Of a DNA stretch of 36,191 bases, positions 6,986-22,212 are shown one piece after another (position 1 is the stretch's first letter; each line of letters opens with the position of its first letter). The stretch lies in the NCBI GenBank assembly GCA_025980335.1, contig JAICXO010000010.1, positions 1-36,191 of the forward strand, given 5' to 3'. The stretch comes from Sphingomonas sp. (lineage in GTDB: Bacteria > Pseudomonadota > Alphaproteobacteria > Sphingomonadales > Sphingomonadaceae). Under the pieces are notes generated by a model, which was not told the DNA's origin, ran no database searches, and saw nothing but the letters and a program-made list of their open reading frames with translations. A program made the translations under genes and the position numbers.

Positions 6986-7663
6986 GTGAGGATTCTCGTC
7001 GCCGAAGACGACGCGGATACGGCCGAGTTCATCCGGCGAGGGCTGCGTGAGCTCGGCCACAATGTGCTGACGACCGGCGACGGGTTCGACGCCTTGCATC
7101 TGCTTTCCACCGAGCAGATGGAGGTCGCGGTCCTCGACCGGATGCTTCCGAACCTCGATGGTGTGTCGATCGTCCGCCGGGTGCGAGCAGCGGGCATCGG
7201 AGTCCCGGTCCTGCTGCTGACCGCGCTCGGACGGATCGAAGATCGCGTGACCGGCCTCGAAGCCGGCGCCGACGATTATCTGGTCAAGCCGTTCGCGTTC
7301 TCGGAGCTGGCGGCACGGGTCAATGCGCTCGGCCGGCGCAAGCCCGTCCATGCCGAGCCGACGCGGCTCGAGCATGGCGAGATCGTGGTCGACCTGCTGA
7401 AGCGGCAGGTGCTTCGCGGGGGCGCGGTGGTCCAGCTGCAGCCGCGCGAGTTCCGAATCCTCGAAGAATTGATGCGCGAGGAGGGCAAGGTCGTCACCCG
7501 GACGATGCTGCTCGAACGGGTGTGGAACTATCATTTCGATCCGCAGACCAATATCGTCGACACCCACATCAGCCGCCTGCGCTCCAAGCTCAACGAGGGC
7601 GGCCGGCCGGACCTGATCGAGACCGTTCGCGGCACCGGCTATCGCATGGGCGGCGATGCGTAA
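6986..7663 (+). CDS. OmpR/QseB-type response regulator
   Basis: This 225-residue regulator has a receiver domain (ILVAEDDADTAEF; phospho-acceptor Asp in VLDRMLPNLDG; Lys in LVKPFAF). A winged-helix DNA-binding domain begins near residue 128 and ends with the usual DTHISRLRSKLNEGG and VRGTGYRMG motifs. The start is GTG, preceded by GAGG at a suitable distance. The gap to the PepSY gene is only 18 bases, and its end overlaps the kinase gene by 8 bases, so the two are a cognate pair. It most resembles the QseB/CusR/PmrA group. The controlled genes are probably this operon itself, which is inference. Confidence 0.93.
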   Translation: MRILVAEDDADTAEFIRRGLRELGHNVLTTGDGFDALHLLSTEQMEVAVLDRMLPNLDGVSIVRRVRAAGIGVPVLLLTALGRIEDRVTGLEAGADDYLVKPFAFSELAARVNALGRRKPVHAEPTRLEHGEIVVDLLKRQVLRGGAVVQLQPREFRILEELMREEGKVVTRTMLLERVWNYHFDPQTNIVDTHISRLRSKLNEGGRPDLIETVRGTGYRMGGDA

Positions 7664-9053
7664 GTGGCGGTCCAGTGCGGCCTACCGCATCGCCTTCATC
7701 AACTTCGGCGCTTATGCGGTCGGGCTGGCGCTTCTCGGCATGATCGTGTTCGCGGTGATGCACGTCGCTTTCTCGCGTCAGCTGGATTCGATGGTGTCCG
7801 ATGAAGCGCAGACGCTTCAGGACGAATTTCGCAGCGGCGGCGATGGCGAGCTCGCCGAAGCCATCGCACAGCGCGAGGCGCTGAAGTCTCCGACACGGAT
7901 GGTCTATGCCGTGTTCACGCCGGCCGGGCGCAAGATCCACGGGTCGCTGCAGACCAGCAGGCCTCCGCTCGGGCTGCACCCGATCATCTTCCGCGACCCG
8001 AAGGAAGGACCCGACGAAGCGCGCGCGATGACGGTCGATCTGTCGCCGGGCGAGCGGCTCGTCGTCGCGGCCGACAGCGACTGGCTCGAAGGCATAGAGC
8101 GGATCGTGATCGTCATCTTCACGCTCGCGTTCGTCGGGTCGGTGCTCGTCGGCTTCGGCGGAGCGGTCGTGCTCGGCTCCTATCTCCAGCGGAGGCTGCA
8201 ATCGATCAGCAGCTCGGCCGAGGCGATCATCGGCGGCGACATCCGGCGGCGGATGCCCGTCGGTCCGCGCAGGGACGAGTTCGACCAGCTCGCGGCGACC
8301 CTCAACCGGATGCTCGACCGGATCGAAGGCCTGCTCGACAACCTCCGCCAGGTGTCGAGCGATATCGCGCACGACCTGCGCACGCCGCTCGCGCGATTGC
8401 GCAATCGGCTCGAGCGCGGGCTTGCCGATGAGCCGGAGGCGGATGCGCTAATCGCCGACGCGATCCGGCAGCTCGACGAGGTCCTGTCGCTGTTCGCTGC
8501 CATCCTCCGCGTGGCCGAGGTCGAGAGCGGCGAGACCAAGCGGTTCTTCGAGCCGGTCGACATCAGCGCGCTGCTCACCGAACTCGCCGAGAGCTATGCC
8601 CCGGCATTCGAAGACGAGGGGCGGATGTTCCTGTGGTCGGTCGAGCCGGACTTGTGGGTCGAGGGCGACCGAGAGCTGCTTGCGCAAGCGATGGTCAACC
8701 TGCTGGAGAATGCGCAGCGGCATACGCCGGTCGATGCGATCGTCAGGATGAGCGGATCGGCTGCGGCACGCGTCGTCTTCATGCACGTGGAGGATAACGG
8801 CCCGGGCGTTCCGAAGCGCGACCTCAGCCGGATCACCAAGCGGTTCGCGAGAGTCGAGAGCAGCCGCAACACGGCCGGCCACGGGCTTGGACTGAGCCTG
8901 GTCAGCGCCGTCGCCAAGCTTCACGGAGGTCAGCTAGCGCTCAAGAGCGGCCCCGGCTTTTCCGCGACGATCGCAATTGCACGAACCGGCGCTGGCGGGG
9001 AAGCGTTGGGCAGGAATTCCGAACAAGGCAGACAGGAAGAGGAGGCCGGATGA
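7656..9053 (+). CDS. Sensor histidine kinase, QseC/CusS-like
   Basis: This 465-residue membrane kinase has a first transmembrane helix near residues 15-37, a periplasmic sensor of about 110 residues and a second helix (IVIVIFTLAFVGSVLVGFGG). A HAMP linker follows, then HisKA with its histidine in SSDIAHDLRTPLARL, then HATPase with N box ENAQRHTP, DNGPGVP and GHGLGLSLV. All phosphorelay motifs are present. It overlaps the regulator by 8 bases and the DUF347 gene by 4 (ATGA), which supports one transcript. The signal is unknown. The periplasmic sensor has no motif I can name, and the PepSY protein encoded upstream could be its partner. Confidence 0.93.
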   Translation: MRKWRSSAAYRIAFINFGAYAVGLALLGMIVFAVMHVAFSRQLDSMVSDEAQTLQDEFRSGGDGELAEAIAQREALKSPTRMVYAVFTPAGRKIHGSLQTSRPPLGLHPIIFRDPKEGPDEARAMTVDLSPGERLVVAADSDWLEGIERIVIVIFTLAFVGSVLVGFGGAVVLGSYLQRRLQSISSSAEAIIGGDIRRRMPVGPRRDEFDQLAATLNRMLDRIEGLLDNLRQVSSDIAHDLRTPLARLRNRLERGLADEPEADALIADAIRQLDEVLSLFAAILRVAEVESGETKRFFEPVDISALLTELAESYAPAFEDEGRMFLWSVEPDLWVEGDRELLAQAMVNLLENAQRHTPVDAIVRMSGSAAARVVFMHVEDNGPGVPKRDLSRITKRFARVESSRNTAGHGLGLSLVSAVAKLHGGQLALKSGPGFSATIAIARTGAGGEALGRNSEQGRQEEEAG

Positions 9054-11670: not shown

Positions 11671-13023
11671 TCAGCCGGGAATGAGGCGGTAGCCGACGCC
11701 GGGCTCATTGACGATCAGCCGCGGCCGGCCCGGTTCCCTTTCGAGCTTCTGGCGGATCGAGCGTATGGCGACGCGCAGATATTCGGTCTGCCCTTCCTGC
11801 GCCGGTCCCCAGGCGGTTCGAAGCAGATGCTCGTGGGTGAGCACCCGGCCTGGATGCTTCGCGAGCTCTGCAAGGACGGTATATTCCTTGGGCGTCAGGT
11901 GGACGTCCTTGTCGTTCTTGAAGACTGCACGCTGGAACAGGTCGATGGTCACGTGATCCGCCCTGATCGGCCGCTGGTCTGCCGCCGGCTCCAGCTCGAG
12001 CAGGTTCGAGAGATAGCGGTCGAGCCTCGCGGATTCGGATCCGATCGCCGACACCAGCGCCTTGTCGCTCGAGCCGCTGCGCCGCAGGTCGCGAGCGGCA
12101 CCGGCGATCGCTTCGATCGGCGGCCTCAAGTCCTGCCCGATCGACGAGAGCAGCGCGGAGCGCAGCCGGTCCCGCTCGCGCAATGCTGCGAAGTTCCGCG
12201 CCTGATCGTCGAGGCGCGTCCGTTCGAGGGCGAGTGCCAGCTGGTCGAGGAGGTTTCCGACCAGCGGCAATTGCTCGTCGGAGACGGGCGGCATCCCGTC
12301 GTCGCGCGCGAGGCCGACCGCGGCGAGCACCGATTCCGCCGAGCCGACCGGATGGAAGACCCATTCTGCGGGCTGCATGCGGCTGGTTCCGCGGCCCGCC
12401 GGCATAGCGGATTCGATGCACAAGGCCGCAGCTGCGACATCGCTCGGCGTGAGCCGATTCCCGTCGGGGACGGCAGCGACGATCTGAGGTGAGGGAAGCC
12501 CACTGACCAGCAACGCGTTGCACTGCAGCAGGCGGCGCAGCTCCACGCATGCGCTGAGCGCAATCTCCTTCTCCCCGCTGCACGACAGCAGGCGGCCCGC
12601 GAATCCGGCAATCGTCGCGTTTCGCTCGCCGCGGGCGGCGGCAAGCCGCGCCTGGCTGCGCATCGCCGACGCAAGCCTGCTTGTGACGAGTGCGACGATA
12701 AGCAGGATCACGACCGTGACGACGTCGGCGACGCGGTTCATGCGAAAGGTGTGGACCGGCTCGGTGAAAAAGAAATTGTACGACAGAGCAGCGGCGATTC
12801 CCGCGACGAGGCCGGGCCCGATGCCCCACAGTGCCGCCGCCGCAAGTACGGCGGGGAGAAACAGCATGTCGACGGGCGCCGTTCCCCAGCGCGGAGCAAT
12901 CCACAGCCCGACCAGAGTCGACGCGGCGACCAACGCCAGCGTCCCGGCATAGGATTGAAAAGCACCCGCTACTGCGCGGCGTGGATGCGGCTCGACGACG
13001 TCGATCGGAAGCACGTCAGTCAT
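11671..13023 (-). CDS. Membrane-anchored KdpD/KdpE chimera: DUF4118-GAF-pseudoHisKA-winged helix
   Basis: This 450-residue protein joins parts of two proteins that are normally separate. Residues 28-118 carry four transmembrane helices of the DUF4118 type, including the KdpD signature SYNFFFTEPVHTF. Residues about 135-268 look like the KdpD GAF domain. Residues 283-345 align with the KdpD HisKA helices, but the phospho-acceptor His is Gln297 (SSIGQDLRPP instead of S-HDLRTP). No HATPase follows. Residues 357-450 are an OmpR-type winged helix very like the KdpE end (LTPKEYTVL, VLTHEHLL, SIRQKLEREPGRPR, GVGYRLIPG). No receiver, and no N-terminal KdpD ATP-binding part, is present. It should therefore be a one-step, membrane-bound transcription regulator without phosphotransfer. 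It is divergent from kup, its likely target. GGGAGG sits only one base before the ATG; the GTG at 13014 is better spaced and may be the true start. Confidence 0.92.
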   Translation of the reverse strand: MTDVLPIDVVEPHPRRAVAGAFQSYAGTLALVAASTLVGLWIAPRWGTAPVDMLFLPAVLAAAALWGIGPGLVAGIAAALSYNFFFTEPVHTFRMNRVADVVTVVILLIVALVTSRLASAMRSQARLAAARGERNATIAGFAGRLLSCSGEKEIALSACVELRRLLQCNALLVSGLPSPQIVAAVPDGNRLTPSDVAAAALCIESAMPAGRGTSRMQPAEWVFHPVGSAESVLAAVGLARDDGMPPVSDEQLPLVGNLLDQLALALERTRLDDQARNFAALRERDRLRSALLSSIGQDLRPPIEAIAGAARDLRRSGSSDKALVSAIGSESARLDRYLSNLLELEPAADQRPIRADHVTIDLFQRAVFKNDKDVHLTPKEYTVLAELAKHPGRVLTHEHLLRTAWGPAQEGQTEYLRVAIRSIRQKLEREPGRPRLIVNEPGVGYRLIPG

Positions 13024-13123
13024 ACCTCCCTAAGTGAGCGCGGATCGGGCGTGCGTCGAGAGGAGCCAGGCCGGAGTCACCCATTAATCCTATGCTGCGG
13101 CGCACAATACACATAGAATCTTT
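13024..13123. promoter_or_regulatory. Divergent region between the KdpD/KdpE chimera and kup
   Basis: These 100 bases should hold the promoters of both genes. Two near-identical direct elements are visible: AATCCTATGC at 13086-13095 and AATCTTTATGC at 13117-13127. Their centres are about 31 bases apart, close to three helical turns. An inverted pair CTATG/CATAG (13090-13094 and 13112-13116) overlaps them. OmpR-type winged helices usually bind direct repeats, so the first pair is a candidate operator, though the second copy runs into the annotated kup start codon. If it is an operator, the true kup start may lie downstream. Confidence 0.35.
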
Positions 13124-15070
13124 ATGCCCCTGCGATCCACATCGCGAGCCGTGGACGACATTCCAGCACACAAGGTCGAGCCCGCAGCTGCGACACCGGC
13201 GCCTCACAGCCCCGAGGAACCGCTGCCAAAGCTGATGCTCGGAGCGATCGGCGTCGTCTATGGCGACATCGGCACGTCCCCGCTTTACGCGATGAAGGAA
13301 AGCTTCCTCGGACCGCACCCGCTTTCGGTCGACCGGCTGCACATTTTCGGCGTGCTGAGCCTGATCTTCTGGTCGCTGATGGTGGTGGTGACCGCTAAAT
13401 ATGTGTTCGTCGCGATGCGCGCGGACAACAAAGGCGAGGGCGGCTCGTTCGCATTGCTGTCGCTGATCGCGCGCAACCTCGGCGAGAAGAGGTGGACGAA
13501 GACGCTGGTGCTGATGGGCGTGCTGGCGACCTGCCTGTTCTACGGCGACGCGATGATCACGCCGGCCGTGACGATGCTACCCGCGATCGAGGGACTGGCG
13601 GTGGTCGAGCCGCAAGTGCAGCCGCTGATCATCCCGATCACGATCGCCATTCTCATCGGCCTGTTCGCCATCCAGCGCCGCGGGACCGGTACCGTCGGCG
13701 GCTGGTTCGGGCCGATCATCCTCGCCTATCTTGCGAGTCTCGCCGGGTTCGGGCTGATGCGAATCCTCGAGCGGCCGGAAATCATCGCGGCGCTGAGCCC
13801 GAGCTGGGCAATGCGGTTCTTTCTCGTCAACCCGAAGCTGAGCTTCCTTGCGCTCGGGTCGGTGTTCCTCGCCGTCACCGGCGCCGAAGCGCTTTATGCC
13901 GACATGGGCCACTTCGGACGCCGCGCGATCGGCCTTTCCTGGCTGACGCTCGTCTATCCATGCCTGATGCTCAACTATCTCGGACAGGGCGCGCTTCTGC
14001 TCGAACATCCCGCAGCGGTCGCCAATCCGTTCTATTTGATGGCGCCGGACTGGGGCCGCTTGCCGCTGGTCGCAATTGCGACCCTGGCATGCATCGTCGC
14101 CAGCCAGGCGGTGATTTCCGGCGCCTTCTCCGTCACCCACCAGGCAATCCAGCTCGGCTATCTCCCGCGCCTCAAGACCGAGCACACGAGCGAGAAGGCT
14201 GCCGGGCAAATCTACATCCTTGCGGTCAACTGGCTGCTGCTCGCGATGGTGATCCTGCTCATCCTCGGCTTCAGGCAATCGACGCGCCTCGCGTCGGCCT
14301 ACGGCATCGCGGTCACGGGCACGATGCTGATTACGACGACGATGCTGGGCGTGCTCGTGTTCCAGGTGTGGCGGTGGAACCGGCTGCTGGCATTCGCAAC
14401 GATCGGCCTGTTCTTCGTCGTCGACAGCATCTTCTTCGCGTCGAACATCACCAAGGTCGCGGACGGCGGCTGGTTCCCGCTGCTGGTCGCGGCGATCAGC
14501 TTCATCATACTGACCACCTGGGCGAAGGGGCGGGCGCTGATGCGCCAGCGGCTGCAGGAATCGGCGCTTCCGCTTTCGGTGTTCATCAAGTCCACGGCCT
14601 CGTCGGTGCACCGGGTGCGCGGAACCTCGGTGTTCCTGTCGACCTCCGCCGACGTCGTGCCCGCCGCGCTGCTCCACAATCTGAAGCACAACCAGGTGCT
14701 CCACGAGCGCGTGCTGATCCTGAATGTGAAGGTCGAGGACGTGCCGCATGTGCCGGCGCGGAGGCGGGTCGAAATCCACGACTCCGGCGACGGGTTCTAC
14801 CGGGTCATTCTCCACTACGGCTTCATGCAGGAGGTCGACATCCCGGGTGACCTTGCCGGCATCAAGACCTGCGGCGAGCCGTTCAACATGATGCGCACGA
14901 GCTTCTTCCTGGGACGCCAGAAGCTGGTCGCTTCGAGCAAGAAGCCGGGCATGGCGGTGTGGCGCGAGAAGCTGTTCGCCTGGATGCTCAAGAATTCCGA
15001 AAGTGCGATGGAGTTCTTCAAGCTGCCGACCAACCGCGTGGTCGAGCTCGGCAGCCAGCTTCAGCTCTAG
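13124..15070 (+). CDS. kup: Kup-family potassium uptake transporter
   Basis: This 648-residue membrane protein has the Kup/HAK hallmark GAIGVVYGDIGTSPLYAMKESF in its first helix, about twelve transmembrane segments to around residue 460, and a cytosolic C-terminal domain. Kup imports potassium with protons. Motifs such as ADNKGEGGSFAL, FYGDAMITPAVTML and GAEALYADMGHFG are all present, so it should be functional. The N-terminal 35 residues before PLPKLML are poorly conserved in style, and the ATG at 13124 has no good ribosome site. A start at the GTG at 13151 is possible. The divergent neighbour is a Kdp-derived regulator, suggesting local control by potassium or turgor. Its stop codon lies inside the palindrome shared with the convergent regulator gene. 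Confidence 0.95.
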   Translation: MPLRSTSRAVDDIPAHKVEPAAATPAPHSPEEPLPKLMLGAIGVVYGDIGTSPLYAMKESFLGPHPLSVDRLHIFGVLSLIFWSLMVVVTAKYVFVAMRADNKGEGGSFALLSLIARNLGEKRWTKTLVLMGVLATCLFYGDAMITPAVTMLPAIEGLAVVEPQVQPLIIPITIAILIGLFAIQRRGTGTVGGWFGPIILAYLASLAGFGLMRILERPEIIAALSPSWAMRFFLVNPKLSFLALGSVFLAVTGAEALYADMGHFGRRAIGLSWLTLVYPCLMLNYLGQGALLLEHPAAVANPFYLMAPDWGRLPLVAIATLACIVASQAVISGAFSVTHQAIQLGYLPRLKTEHTSEKAAGQIYILAVNWLLLAMVILLILGFRQSTRLASAYGIAVTGTMLITTTMLGVLVFQVWRWNRLLAFATIGLFFVVDSIFFASNITKVADGGWFPLLVAAISFIILTTWAKGRALMRQRLQESALPLSVFIKSTASSVHRVRGTSVFLSTSADVVPAALLHNLKHNQVLHERVLILNVKVEDVPHVPARRRVEIHDSGDGFYRVILHYGFMQEVDIPGDLAGIKTCGEPFNMMRTSFFLGRQKLVASSKKPGMAVWREKLFAWMLKNSESAMEFFKLPTNRVVELGSQLQL

Positions 15071-15084
15071 GGTCCAGACCCTAG
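15067..15084. repeat. Palindrome CTAGGGTCCAGACCCTAG carrying both stop codons (copy 1)
   Basis: This is an 8-base inverted repeat with a 2-base centre. The stop TAG of kup (15068-15070) and the stop TAG of the convergent response regulator (15081-15083) are both inside it. A second copy of its 16-base core is at 24464-24479, in the same position between two convergent genes. It could act as a two-way terminator or RNA end hairpin. No T-run follows on either strand. Confidence 0.8.
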
Positions 15085-15698
15085 CCGCCGAGAAGGTCCG
15101 CGGCGCGCATCGCGAGCTCGGTGCGGTTGTCGACCCCGAGCTTGTCGAAAATCGCGTGCAGATACACCTTCACCGTGCCTTCGGTGACGCCGAGCTGCGC
15201 CGCGATGTCCCGGTTGCGAAGACCGTGGCGCACGAGATCGATCAACTCGCGCTCGCGCGGAGTCAGCGACGGCGCGCGCGCCGCCCGCTCTTTCGCATGG
15301 CGGGTTCGGTCGGCGATCTCGGGATCGACCCAGGATTCGCCCCTCCGCACCTGCTCCATGCATTCGAGCAGCAGCGCCGGGTCCGAAGTCTTGAGCACCA
15401 TGCCCTCGGGCGCGAGCCGGTCGGCGGTGAGGAGCTGGGTATCGTCCATGCCGGCCGTGAGGAGGATCACGGCGGGTGCACGGCGCGTGGAGCGCAGCTG
15501 GCGGAGCACGTCGAGGCCGCCCCCCTCGGGCATGTTGACGTCGAGCAGGAGCAGCTGAGGCTTGTACTGCTGCACCTGGTTCAATGCGTCTTCGCCACTT
15601 CGGGCGCGGCCGACCAGCTCATAATCGCTGCCGCGCAGAAGCACGTCGAGCGCGGCAGCAATCATCGGATGGTCGTCGGCCAAGAGAACGCGGATCAT
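15081..15698 (-). CDS. NarL/LuxR-type response regulator
   Basis: This 205-residue regulator has a receiver (RVLLADDHPMIAAAL; Asp in LLLLDVNMPEGGG; Lys in MVLKTSDPA). A LuxR-type helix-turn-helix covers about residues 143-200 (SLTPRERELIDLVRHGLRNRDIAA, then GVTEGTVKVYLHAIFDKLGV). It is the cognate partner of the kinase encoded just upstream, whose stop overlaps its start (ATGA). DNA binding and dimerisation after phosphorylation of the Asp are expected from the family. The target genes are unknown, and no obvious target lies next to it apart from the GGDEF-EAL gene upstream on the same strand. Confidence 0.93.
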   Translation of the reverse strand: MIRVLLADDHPMIAAALDVLLRGSDYELVGRARSGEDALNQVQQYKPQLLLLDVNMPEGGGLDVLRQLRSTRRAPAVILLTAGMDDTQLLTADRLAPEGMVLKTSDPALLLECMEQVRRGESWVDPEIADRTRHAKERAARAPSLTPRERELIDLVRHGLRNRDIAAQLGVTEGTVKVYLHAIFDKLGVDNRTELAMRAADLLGG

Positions 15699-17401
15699 AC
15701 TGGTGCCCCCGTCAGCGGCAGAGTGATGAGAATATAGGTGCTGCCCGGCTCCGAGCGCAGCGACAGCGAGCCGGCGGCGCGGTCGGCCCGCTCCTTCAGC
15801 GACCAGGGTTCGACCGGCGAGCCGCCGTTCGTCGGTGGAAACCCGGACCCATTGTCCAGAACTTCGAGCCGAAGCTCGTCATCGTCAACGCATACATCGA
15901 CCTCGACCACGCTCGCACGGCCATGGCGGACGGCGTTCGCGACCGCCTCGCGGAGAAGCTGCTGCAGATCGAGCTGAAGGCGGATGGGGATGGTTGTGTT
16001 CCCGCCGCTTCTGAACACCCGGCAATCGATCGACCATTGCCGGCTGAGCCGAAGCGCGAGCGCTTTCAGCTCCTCGACCGCTTCGCTCGACTCGAGCTCG
16101 CGGTGGCGGCGCAGCGCGGACACCAGAGCGCGAATTTCCGCCTGTTCCTCGATGAGCAAGCGCTTGAGCTCCTTCAACTCATCCTCGACCTGACCGCCGG
16201 TGCGGGGGCCGCGCATGATCGCCTCCACGCGGAACGCAGCCCCGGCCAGGAACTGGAGCACGCTATCATGCACATCGCGGGCGAGCGAAAGGCGCGTTCG
16301 GGCCGCCGCCCCCTCTTCGATCGCGGCGAGCAACGCATCGTGATCGAGGGCCGCGCCCGCCGTCCGGCCGAGCTCGGTGCCGACTTCCAGGAAATCGACC
16401 GAAAGCCCGGGAATGTCCCACAGGACGAGCCAACCCTGGCGTGTCCCGGTGCGGACCTCGGCCACCAGCCCCTCGCGGGCGCCGATCTCCGCAAGAGCGG
16501 CGTCGTCGAGAAGGCTCGATGCCGACCCGAACCGGTACCAACCGTCCCTTCGGGTAGCGAGCGAACGGTCGCGGGAGAGGTCGAACATCACCGAAGGCAG
16601 CGGTTCACTCATGAGCTGACCGTCGGTGGCGACCGATTTCGTGCCGCCGCGACCCATCGCAATGCCACTGAAACGCGTCTCGTCGGCCGATCCTACCAGG
16701 AGCGCGCCGGAGCGCGCGCGCGCTGCTTCCATTGCGAGGCCGAGCGCCCGCGGCAACGGATCCCCGTCCCGCCCGAGGCGCCGGTCGAGCTCGTCGAGGC
16801 CGAAGAACAGACGCGTGAACTGCTGATGGGCGCCGAACCAGATGAGCACCGCCGAGAGGATGAGGAGGTGGCCGCTGCGGACAACGAACTGCTGGATTTC
16901 GAACGTGTGGCTGCCGGCGACGAGAAGTCCCGCGGTCAGGTAGAAGAGGATGAGCGCGGCCGCGGTCATCGCTGTTTCGCGCCAATCCCACCGGATCGCT
17001 GCAGAAAGGAGCGGGAGAATGAAAAACAGGAAGTAGGGGCTGGTGTAGGCGTTGCCGGAAAAGACGGCGATGGTGAACACGCCCATGTCGATCAGGTGAG
17101 CAGGCGCCGCGAGCCGCGCATCGAGCCACCAGTTGCGCCAGGTGAGCGCAGCGATGCCGAACGCATAGAGCACGTAAAGCAAGAGCAGGACGTAGGTCAC
17201 GGCCGGCGCACCGGCGGACTGTCGGCCGTTGAGCGCAAGCGAGAGCAGGAACAGCAGAGCGAGCATCGCCCGGCCGAGCGCAATGACCCGTCCGCGCTGG
17301 TACCTGAACAGATTCTGCGGACGTGAGAAGTTCAGGGCACGCTCCCCCCTGAGCAATCGCCGGGGAAAGCTTAGACTGAACCGCGCCGCTGCGGAAGCCA
17401 C
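15695..17401 (-). CDS. Membrane sensor histidine kinase, HisKA_3 (NarX/DegS) type
   Basis: This kinase has 568 residues from the GTG at 17401. The N-terminal 190 residues hold about six transmembrane segments (MLALLFLLSLAL, YVLLLLYVLYAFGIA, YFLFFILPLLSAAI, LLILSAVLIWFGA). A GAF-like region follows, then a HisKA_3 domain with its histidine in SLARDVHDSVLQFLAG and an HATPase domain (REAVANAVRHG, LEVLDNGSGFP). These are the features of kinases that pair with NarL-type regulators, and the paired regulator is next. The start is uncertain: the GTG has no clear ribosome site, and later starts before residue 46 (AMLALLF) would keep all helices. The membrane sensor has no close family I can name. It lies 14 bases after the GGDEF-EAL gene and may share its transcript. 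Confidence 0.9.
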   Translation of the reverse strand: MASAAARFSLSFPRRLLRGERALNFSRPQNLFRYQRGRVIALGRAMLALLFLLSLALNGRQSAGAPAVTYVLLLLYVLYAFGIAALTWRNWWLDARLAAPAHLIDMGVFTIAVFSGNAYTSPYFLFFILPLLSAAIRWDWRETAMTAAALILFYLTAGLLVAGSHTFEIQQFVVRSGHLLILSAVLIWFGAHQQFTRLFFGLDELDRRLGRDGDPLPRALGLAMEAARARSGALLVGSADETRFSGIAMGRGGTKSVATDGQLMSEPLPSVMFDLSRDRSLATRRDGWYRFGSASSLLDDAALAEIGAREGLVAEVRTGTRQGWLVLWDIPGLSVDFLEVGTELGRTAGAALDHDALLAAIEEGAAARTRLSLARDVHDSVLQFLAGAAFRVEAIMRGPRTGGQVEDELKELKRLLIEEQAEIRALVSALRRHRELESSEAVEELKALALRLSRQWSIDCRVFRSGGNTTIPIRLQLDLQQLLREAVANAVRHGRASVVEVDVCVDDDELRLEVLDNGSGFPPTNGGSPVEPWSLKERADRAAGSLSLRSEPGSTYILITLPLTGAPV

Positions 17402-20236: not shown

Positions 20237-21409
20237 ATGGCGACCGATAGCGCGACCCTCGAGCGGCGGGTGACGGCCCCGAGGCGCGTATCCGACAGTC
20301 CGAAGATTCAGTCTCCGGCGGACCCGATCGCCCGCGGCATCGGGCTCGATCGGCCCTTCTTCGACGACAAGAACCGCGCTTTCTGGATCCTCCAGTCCAT
20401 CGGCTGGACGGGCTATTTCTTCCTCAGGAGCCTGTCCGGCTTCGCCAACAGCATGGGCTGGATGCTGCTGGTGCACACGTTGCTGCTGACTGCCACCGGC
20501 TATTCGCTGACTCTGCTGATGGCATCGCTGTTCCGGCGGCTGATCAGGATGAAGCCGCTGTGGACCTTAGTCCTGTCGCTGGCGGCGGTCATCATCGCGT
20601 CGGGGGTGTTCTCCGCGATCGAGACCTGGAGCTATGCGACGTTCCTGAAGCCCGGCGCGCGGCCGGTCGGAGTGGAATATTTCGGAGCGATCCTGCTCGA
20701 TTTCGCGCTGCTCACCGCGTGGACCGCGCTCTACTACGCGATCAATTACTTCCTCGTCCTCGAGGACCAGATCCGTGCGCACGAGAAGCTGGAGAGCCAG
20801 GCTTCCTCGGCGCAGCTGGCAATGCTTCGCTACCAGCTTAACCCGCATTTCCTGTTCAACACGCTGAATTCGATCTCGACTCTCGTGCTGCTCAAGCACA
20901 CGGAACGCGCGAACGCGATGCTCGCGCGGCTATCGTCCTTCCTTCGCTACACCTTGGCGAACGAGCCCACTGCCAAGGTCACGCTGGCGCAGGAGGTCGA
21001 AACGCTGAAGCTGTACCTGGAGATCGAAAAGATGCGGTTTGAGGACCGATTGCGGCCGCACTTCAAGATCGACCCAGACACGATCGGTGCACGCCTGCCT
21101 TCTCTCCTGCTCCAGCCGCTGATCGAGAATGCGATCAAATATGCGGTGACGCCGGCGGAGAACGGCGCGGATATCTGGATCACCGCGACCCATGAAGGAC
21201 ACGCGGTCCGGATCGAGGTCGCCGACAACGGGAACGGCGAGGGGGGAGAGATTGCGGCGAGCCCGTCGACCGGGGTCGGCCTGGCGAACATTCGGGACAG
21301 ACTGTCGCAGGCCTATGGCGCGGCGCACCGCTTCCAGACGAAACAGAACGAGCAGGGGGGGTTCAGCGTTGTCGTCGAAATCCCCTACGAAACCGGAGAG
21401 AGTGCCTGA
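20237..21409 (+). CDS. LytS/YehU-type sensor histidine kinase
   Basis: This 390-residue membrane kinase has four transmembrane segments between about residues 45 and 170 (IGWTGYFFLRS, WMLLVHTLLLTATGYSLTLLM, WTLVLSLAAVIIASGVF, ILLDFALLTAWTALYYAIN). A coiled stretch follows, then the His_kinase domain with its histidine in RYQLNPHFLFNTLNSIS and an HATPase domain (PLIENAIKYAV, VADNGNG, GVGLANIRDRL). This family pairs with LytTR regulators, and the next gene is one, with a one-base overlap (TGATG). The ATG at 20237 is preceded by a G-run ribosome site. Signals of this class are mostly unknown; some sense extracellular pyruvate or peptides. Confidence 0.93.
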   Translation: MATDSATLERRVTAPRRVSDSPKIQSPADPIARGIGLDRPFFDDKNRAFWILQSIGWTGYFFLRSLSGFANSMGWMLLVHTLLLTATGYSLTLLMASLFRRLIRMKPLWTLVLSLAAVIIASGVFSAIETWSYATFLKPGARPVGVEYFGAILLDFALLTAWTALYYAINYFLVLEDQIRAHEKLESQASSAQLAMLRYQLNPHFLFNTLNSISTLVLLKHTERANAMLARLSSFLRYTLANEPTAKVTLAQEVETLKLYLEIEKMRFEDRLRPHFKIDPDTIGARLPSLLLQPLIENAIKYAVTPAENGADIWITATHEGHAVRIEVADNGNGEGGEIAASPSTGVGLANIRDRLSQAYGAAHRFQTKQNEQGGFSVVVEIPYETGESA

Positions 21410-22212
21410 TGACAATCCGGACCATTTTGGTCGATGACGAACCGCTGGCAACGCAGGGCCTGCAGCTGAGGCTTCAGGCATTCGACGACGTCGAGATCGT
21501 CGCCACCGCCGCCAACGGACGCGAAGCGATCCGCCAGATCAAGACGCACAAGCCGGACCTCGTCTTTCTCGACATCCAGATGCCCGGCTTCGACGGCTTT
21601 TCGGTCATCCAGGGGCTGATGGATGTCGAGCTCCCATTGTTCGTGTTCGTGACCGCGTACGGCGACCATGCACTCCGCGCATTCGACGCGCAGGCGGTCG
21701 ATTATCTGATGAAACCGGTCGACGAGGACCGGCTCGCCGCGACCATGGACCGCGTTCGTCAGCGGCTGCAGGAAAAAAGGAGCGCGGAAGAAGCCGGCCG
21801 CCTCAAGGAGGCGCTTGCCGAGCACGCGCCCGAAGCGGCCGAGGAGCTGGCGGAATCGGCCAACGACACGCCCGCCTCGAACCGCTACGAGAAGATGATC
21901 AACATCAAGGACCAGGGGCAGATTTTCCGCGTGGACGTCGACACGATCGAGCGGATCGACGCCGCCGGCGATTACATGTGCATCCAGACCGGCGACAACA
22001 CGTTGATCCTCCGCGAAACGATGAAGGACCTGGAAAAGCGGCTCGACCCGCGGCGCTTCCAGCGCGTGCACCGCTCGACCATCGTCAACCTCGATCTGGT
22101 CCGGCAGGTCAAGCCGCACACCAACGGAGAATGCTTTCTCGTGCTCGGTTCCGGAGCGCAGGTGAAAGTCTCGCGTTCATACCGCGATGTCGTCGCGCGA
22201 TTCGTCCACTAA
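21409..22212 (+). CDS. LytTR-family response regulator
   Basis: This 267-residue regulator has a receiver (RTILVDDEPLATQGL; Asp in LVFLDIQMPGFDG; Lys in YLMKPVDEDRL). An Ala/Glu-rich linker follows, then a LytTR DNA-binding domain from about residue 165 (FRVDVDTIERIDAAGDY, RRFQRVHRSTIVNLDLV, VKVSRSYRDVV). LytTR regulators commonly bind paired sites upstream of genes for secreted or membrane proteins. It is the cognate partner of the LytS-like kinase upstream. It ends inside the next gene, a lone receiver, with a 26-base overlap if that gene's annotated start is used. Confidence 0.94.
   Translation: MTIRTILVDDEPLATQGLQLRLQAFDDVEIVATAANGREAIRQIKTHKPDLVFLDIQMPGFDGFSVIQGLMDVELPLFVFVTAYGDHALRAFDAQAVDYLMKPVDEDRLAATMDRVRQRLQEKRSAEEAGRLKEALAEHAPEAAEELAESANDTPASNRYEKMINIKDQGQIFRVDVDTIERIDAAGDYMCIQTGDNTLILRETMKDLEKRLDPRRFQRVHRSTIVNLDLVRQVKPHTNGECFLVLGSGAQVKVSRSYRDVVARFVH

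Follow-up and report, generated by a model that had tools for sequence, protein, structure and literature searches.

The window analysed here is a 36,191-nucleotide stretch of Sphingomonas sp. DNA, in which a regulator gene on the reverse strand lies head to head with a K+ transporter gene of the kup type. KdpD and KdpE are normally separate proteins that signal by phosphotransfer in response to potassium, and KdpE activates kdpFABC promoters; at this locus, a KdpD-like sensor half and a KdpE-like DNA-binding half are encoded in a single reading frame. The features of the locus are as follows (window positions, strand in brackets, fractions referring to the relatives described below).

11671–13023 (−): chimeric regulator gene, 450 aa, KdpD sensor half and KdpE DNA-binding half; intact open reading frame, Pfam and NCBIfam
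12631–12951 (−): DUF4118 four-helix membrane region, residues 25–131, with NFFFTEP; Pfam PF13493, 1.5e-25, in 32/32 members
12280–12636 (−): GAF domain, residues about 130–248; Foldseek against 4y2f/4qpr, GAF_3 matches in 14/32
11995–12279 (−): signalling helix and HisKA/DHp-like hairpin, helices 249–315 and 321–343, presumed dimerisation part; HisKA 1.9e-6 and model
12133–12135 (−): codon 297, the phospho-acceptor His position, Gln here; residue tally
11683–11967 (−): KdpE-type winged helix, residues 353–447; Pfam, NCBIfam and structure match
13055–13060 (−): CTCGAC, -35-like element in the promoter of the regulator gene itself; present ahead of that gene in 25/36 loci
13106–13126 (+): putative operator box AATACACATAGAATCTTTATG (kup sense), family consensus AATCCACATGGAATCTTTATG, a KdpE-type 11-bp direct repeat with one half-site altered; conserved gap element, no binding data
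13137–13142 (+): CCACAT, conserved -10-like element of kup; CA invariant in 34 gaps
13151–15070 (+): kup K+ transporter; Pfam K_trans 1.3e-180, predicted leaderless

In addition to DUF4118, Pfam matched HisKA (residues 288–345) and Trans_reg_C (residues 372–447, 1.9e-21) above the cut-off, with a weak match to GAF_3 (0.008). NCBIfam aligned residues 24–343 with positions 401–723 (of 895) of KdpD and residues 350–449 with positions 126–225 of KdpE, such that a central section of KdpD is followed by the C-terminal section of KdpE. An AlphaFold model based on an alignment of 32 homologues (mean pLDDT, 87; pTM, 0.55) placed four helices in the membrane, ahead of a GAF fold and a helix of 67 residues that continues into a helical hairpin, with a winged helix at the C-terminal end; the arrangement of the domains is unsure, given the pTM of the whole model. 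Using Foldseek, the modelled winged helix matched E. coli KdpE (3zq7; TMt, 0.91) and the GAF part matched the crystal structures of the E. coli KdpD GAF domain (4y2f/4qpr; TMt, 0.79–0.80). An earlier sequence-only reading of this DNA had described one 450-residue frame with a KdpD membrane part, a GAF-like part, a HisKA-like helix pair and a C-terminal KdpE-like winged helix, but neither HATPase nor receiver, and these searches and the model confirm that description. Across the family, domain searches placed DUF4118 and Trans_reg_C in one chain in 32/32 members, with hydrophobic helices seen, and detected HATPase_c in 0/32 and Response_reg in 0/32; the N-terminal Usp region of KdpD is likewise missing from the chimera. 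Relatives with HATPase and receiver restored would have refuted the reading, and none of the 32 restores them. A frameshift or assembly error was rejected as an explanation, as the same architecture occurs at 33 distinct loci, with the regulator frame open in 32/33. One relative (L014) is apparently frameshifted.

An alignment tally revealed that the phospho-acceptor His is missing in 31/32 chimeras, and that the residue in its place is variable (Q, 11; E, 6; D, 5; S, 3; N, 3; T, 2; R, 1; H, 1), with 12 changes on the regulator tree. The proposed replacement of His by Gln297 thus holds as a loss of His, while conservation at the site, which the earlier reading had suggested checking together with the absent HATPase, extends to the latter and not to Gln. 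Gln297 as a functional replacement was rejected, given that the site varies among Q, E, D, S, N, T and R. The sole chimera with His at this position (L095:1498–2826; SIGHDLRPP) also lacks a HATPase and is nested within the family. At the other end of the protein, R417 and R424 correspond to R193 and R200 of KdpE, both of which contact DNA (PMC3264566), and are invariant in 32/32 members; the position of KdpE T215 is Asn in every member. The membrane region is conserved as much as the GAF part in the family alignment, with nearly invariant motifs at W46 G47, N83, and F86 T87 P89.

Scanning GTDB contigs yielded 15 relatives, and among 401 genomes surveyed within the order 20, counting the window, were carriers; combined, these amount to 33 distinct full-length relatives with the chimera architecture. 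Culturable carriers include Sphingomonas hankyongi SE220 and Novosphingobium fuchskuhlense FNE08-7. The relatives span at least nine genera, and those with known placement belong to the Sphingomonadaceae or to the window's own family (apparently all Sphingomonadaceae), a family of soil and water bacteria. No chimera was detected in the other families of the order in the 401-genome survey, nor, apart from the window, in 289 genomes drawn from the class; listed plasmid matches were rejected as chimeras outside the family because they are canonical kdpDE pairs. The sensor halves form one clade among sphingomonad KdpDs (support, 100/100) and the winged-helix halves form one clade among KdpEs (support, 99/97). 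Judged from these comparisons and the model, the membrane and GAF regions and the winged helix share descent with KdpD and KdpE. Counts within the family are inflated by shared descent, though the sequence flanking the box is not conserved.

The 21-bp box was present in 33/33 gaps between kup and the regulator, with 16–21 of 21 matches compared to a maximum of 14 in shuffled gaps, and reads CAT(A/T)AAG(A/T)TTCCATGTGGATT on the regulator strand. A pattern search across the 401 genomes, with a reversed-pattern control, identified exactly one box per carrier (20/20), always in the gap between the regulator and the transporter, compared to a box at kup in 1/290 other kup-bearing genomes (Fisher p = 1.4e-30). 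The box was therefore rejected as a general feature of kup promoters, being absent from 289/290 of those genomes. The single case (genome G251, locus L128) is a second kup with the box and no adjoining regulator; an AlpA-like small ORF beside it suggests a mobile element. The remaining matches, in five distant genomes, had no adjoining kup and occurred at the frequency of the reversed-pattern control. In E. coli, the KdpE half-sites are TTTATA-N5-TTTACA (PMC3264566), and canonical sphingomonad kdp loci possess CTTTAYG-N4-CTTTATG boxes (CATAAAGATTCCATAAGG or CATAAAGATTCCGTAAAG). The chimera box retains a TTTATG half-site and the 11-bp period, while its other half-site is CCACAT, without the TT that opens each 6-bp half-site of a KdpE-type promoter, a difference which suggests a binding specificity shifted relative to KdpE. 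Further, KdpE of Sinorhizobium fredii does not bind the kup or trkA promoters (PMC9239096), so kup does not appear to be a general KdpE target.

Downstream of the box, the position of a CCCACNT element is constant and its CA does not vary; the start codon of kup falls 23 or 24 nt past the box in 29/33 loci, from which a leaderless kup transcript is predicted. In the window, the ATG at 13124 sits within the conserved operator and the start shared with the relatives is the GTG at 13151; the automatic annotation of kup is thus probably too long. No sigma-70 consensus promoter was found in the gap between the regulator and kup. A promoter matrix trained only on chimera-kup promoters was applied to 13 canonical kdp loci, and in eight of these the best site was the kdpFABC promoter, in the kdp direction (3.6–25.5 bits; seven >13 bits, one at 3.6), compared to a maximum of 0.1 for 81 simple shuffles. 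The other five canonical kdp promoters had no match to the matrix, and in Halomonas and Marinobacter loci weaker matches lay close to the start of kdpFABC. The spacing from the box to the -10-like element is identical in the chimera-kup and the matched kdpFABC promoters. Based on these matches and this spacing, the kup promoter resembles a kdp promoter that has come to drive kup.

The sequence-only reading had placed the regulator divergent from kup and would have been undermined by homologues that are never near potassium genes. Every homologue adjoins one or more potassium-uptake genes, and kup is the head-to-head neighbour in 32/33 loci, but this adjacency is not universal: at one locus (L006) trkA-trkH (trkAH) takes the place of kup beside the regulator, with the box kept. 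All 20 survey carriers possess at least two Kup genes, compared to mostly one in other genomes. The kdpFABC genes are not the partners of the chimera, as kup or trkAH adjoin it instead and kdpA is absent from 19/20 survey carriers (15/16 in a partly overlapping set). In the Kup tree, two unrelated types occur beside the chimera, 21 forming the sister group to Kups linked to kdp operons and 11 belonging to a distant group. The neighbouring transporter changes five times on the regulator tree, indicating that the regulator remained constant while the K+ transporter was exchanged.

Several other arrangements of kdp genes were observed beside kup. In six relatives (L158–L163), a complete kdpFABC-kdpDE operon lies divergent to kup, and two KdpE-like boxes stand in tandem in the gap, of which the second has almost the layout of the chimera promoter. 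By inference, this arrangement suggests that the chimera may have arisen when kdpFABC was lost and kdpDE collapsed next to kup. In seven further genomes (L142–L148), kup is divergent from a short KdpD (DUF4118-GAF-HisKA-HATPase, no Usp) followed by KdpE, with the His present wherever the site is readable and a CATAAAG-N4-CATAAAG type repeat in the gap, the box pointing away from kup. Though these pairs share with the chimera the divergent position, a KdpE-type box in the gap and the lack of a Usp domain, they are two proteins, retain the HATPase, and fall into a clade of their own, close to other canonical KdpDs. They were rejected as an evolutionary intermediate and, because the clade is separate, appear to be an independent, parallel rewiring of KdpDE next to kup. 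At another locus (L149:10813–11773, reverse strand), a 286-aa chimera-like DUF4118-GAF fragment without DHp or winged helix is encoded ahead of a canonical kdp operon and is itself preceded by a kdp-type promoter (19.4 bits).

Compared to known systems, the chimera shares with KdpD/KdpE of E. coli and Sinorhizobium the GAF, DUF4118 and winged-helix folds, a box of the 11-bp direct-repeat type (in the chimera with one half-site altered), and the promoter spacing, and differs in being one protein without Usp, HATPase, receiver or (in 31/32) His, and with kup or trkAH rather than kdpFABC as its output. It is not a KdpDE system, as the kinase, receiver and kdpFABC features are not met. Transmembrane one-component regulators are common, and it has been suggested that such proteins derive from two-component systems (PMC10269533). 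Like ToxR and CadC (PMC10269533), the chimera would combine sensing and DNA binding from the membrane, but with a four-helix membrane region at the N-terminus, a C-terminal DNA-binding domain behind GAF and DHp, and a two-component origin. Bacteroides hybrid histidine kinases likewise unite a sensor with a DNA-binding domain in a single membrane protein, but retain HisKA, HATPase and receiver (PMC10269533). The earlier reading knew of no described system of this kind. This is upheld for the specific case, in that a search of the open-access literature, with most subscription papers outside its scope, returned no description of a KdpD/KdpE chimera or of this family. It is not upheld for the kind, since Rsp of Neisseria gonorrhoeae is a chimera of a PilS/Nps-like receptor and the PilR/Npa DNA-binding domain (PMC10269533, PMC6528607), likewise fusing a sensor-kinase receptor to the DNA-binding end of a response regulator. 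Rsp, which apparently has no role at pilE (PMC6528607), belongs to unrelated families and has been described for one species, while the chimera has 33 relatives in at least nine genera and a dedicated operator.

Taking the observed architecture, family-wide loss of the catalytic parts, operator, promoter similarity and transporter linkage together, we consider it probable that the chimera is a one-component, membrane-bound activator of the KdpE type that places a second K+ transporter under a kdp-type promoter. The loss of phosphotransfer, the combination of sensor and DNA-binding functions in a single membrane protein, and the control of kup are strongly supported by comparison, given the missing HATPase and receiver, the His lost in 31/32, the nearly invariant kup, and the dedicated box; regulation and K+ sensing are without experiment. 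For the family, the comparative evidence is unusually strong, and the biochemistry is without data. The membrane, GAF and DHp parts of a sphingomonad KdpD would have been joined to the DNA-binding domain of KdpE, with the Usp N-terminus, HATPase and receiver lost. The catalytically dead DHp hairpin would presumably form the dimer in place of the KdpE receiver dimer, and the low-K+ state of the KdpD-derived input (membrane part and/or GAF) would presumably set the winged helices, a change in the membrane or GAF region passing through the long helix to the paired winged helices. These may bind the 21-bp box head-to-tail, approximately 10 bp upstream of the kup -10-like element, and the bound chimera would recruit RNA polymerase to the leaderless kup promoter, such that Kup (TrkAH in one case) would replace the Kdp pump as the output of a kdpFABC-type promoter. 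Dimerisation, DNA binding, activation rather than repression, and low K+ as the signal are all inferred, with no experiment. On its own, the DNA-binding domain of E. coli KdpE binds the two half-sites independently and fails to promote expression in vivo (PMC3264566); a further part thus appears necessary for activation, which DHp dimerisation could supply. We lean, if only slightly, towards the dead hairpin being a mechanical coupler of the KdpD input to the KdpE winged-helix pair, and towards the regulator and its kdp-type promoter being a portable K+-responsive module whose transporters have been exchanged (two unrelated Kup types and TrkAH).

The input may be K+, to which KdpD responds, or else EIIA-Ntr acting on the GAF domain, a route described for S. 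fredii (PMC9239096). That the same protein and box serve a GAF domain reading EIIA-Ntr (PtsN) or another ligand, with the membrane region mainly an anchor, is unlikely but deserves serious attention: in S. fredii the pathway is activated when PtsN in its unphosphorylated form binds the GAF domain of KdpD (PMC9239096), and the chimera has kept a GAF domain that fits the KdpD GAF structures. However, a membrane region conserved to the same degree as the GAF part carries nearly invariant motifs that a plain anchor would not need. The proximity of the box to the promoter is also compatible with a chimera that represses kup by blocking RNA polymerase as long as K+ is not low. Membrane regulators are able to act in this way, with Rsp reported to repress pilA (PMC10269533). 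Repression is nevertheless improbable, as the box, its orientation and its -10 spacing are those of kdpFABC promoters, which KdpE activates, and no sigma-70 consensus promoter was found that would need repression. We give very little credence to the box being bound by another factor beside a linked but unrelated or decaying kdpDE remnant, for which the absent catalytic parts and the G251 kup without an adjoining regulator might be cited, because the frame is open in 32/33 loci, the DNA-contact residues are invariant, box and chimera co-occur in 20/20 carriers, the box resembles a KdpE site (the expected target of the winged helix), and regulator and box persist through transporter exchange.

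Under the preferred reading, a one-component activator, the family would be a clear, old and conserved example of the collapse of a two-component into a one-component system, in which a promoter type was taken over and the transporter was exchanged repeatedly. It also suggests that a DHp hairpin can pass on a signal without catalysis. In the two-component system, sensing by KdpD is entangled with its kinase and phosphatase activities. The stimulus of KdpD has been called a long-standing puzzle (PMC5458449). The chimera seems to use the input domains of KdpD to drive transcription with no phosphotransfer, and with one protein and one operator the KdpD input may be readable directly by a reporter.

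Elsewhere in the window, scans for tRNA and Rfam families returned nothing, and three ordinary two-component pairs are present at 6986–9053 (OmpR-type), 15081–17401 (NarL-type), and 20237–22212 (LytTR-type).
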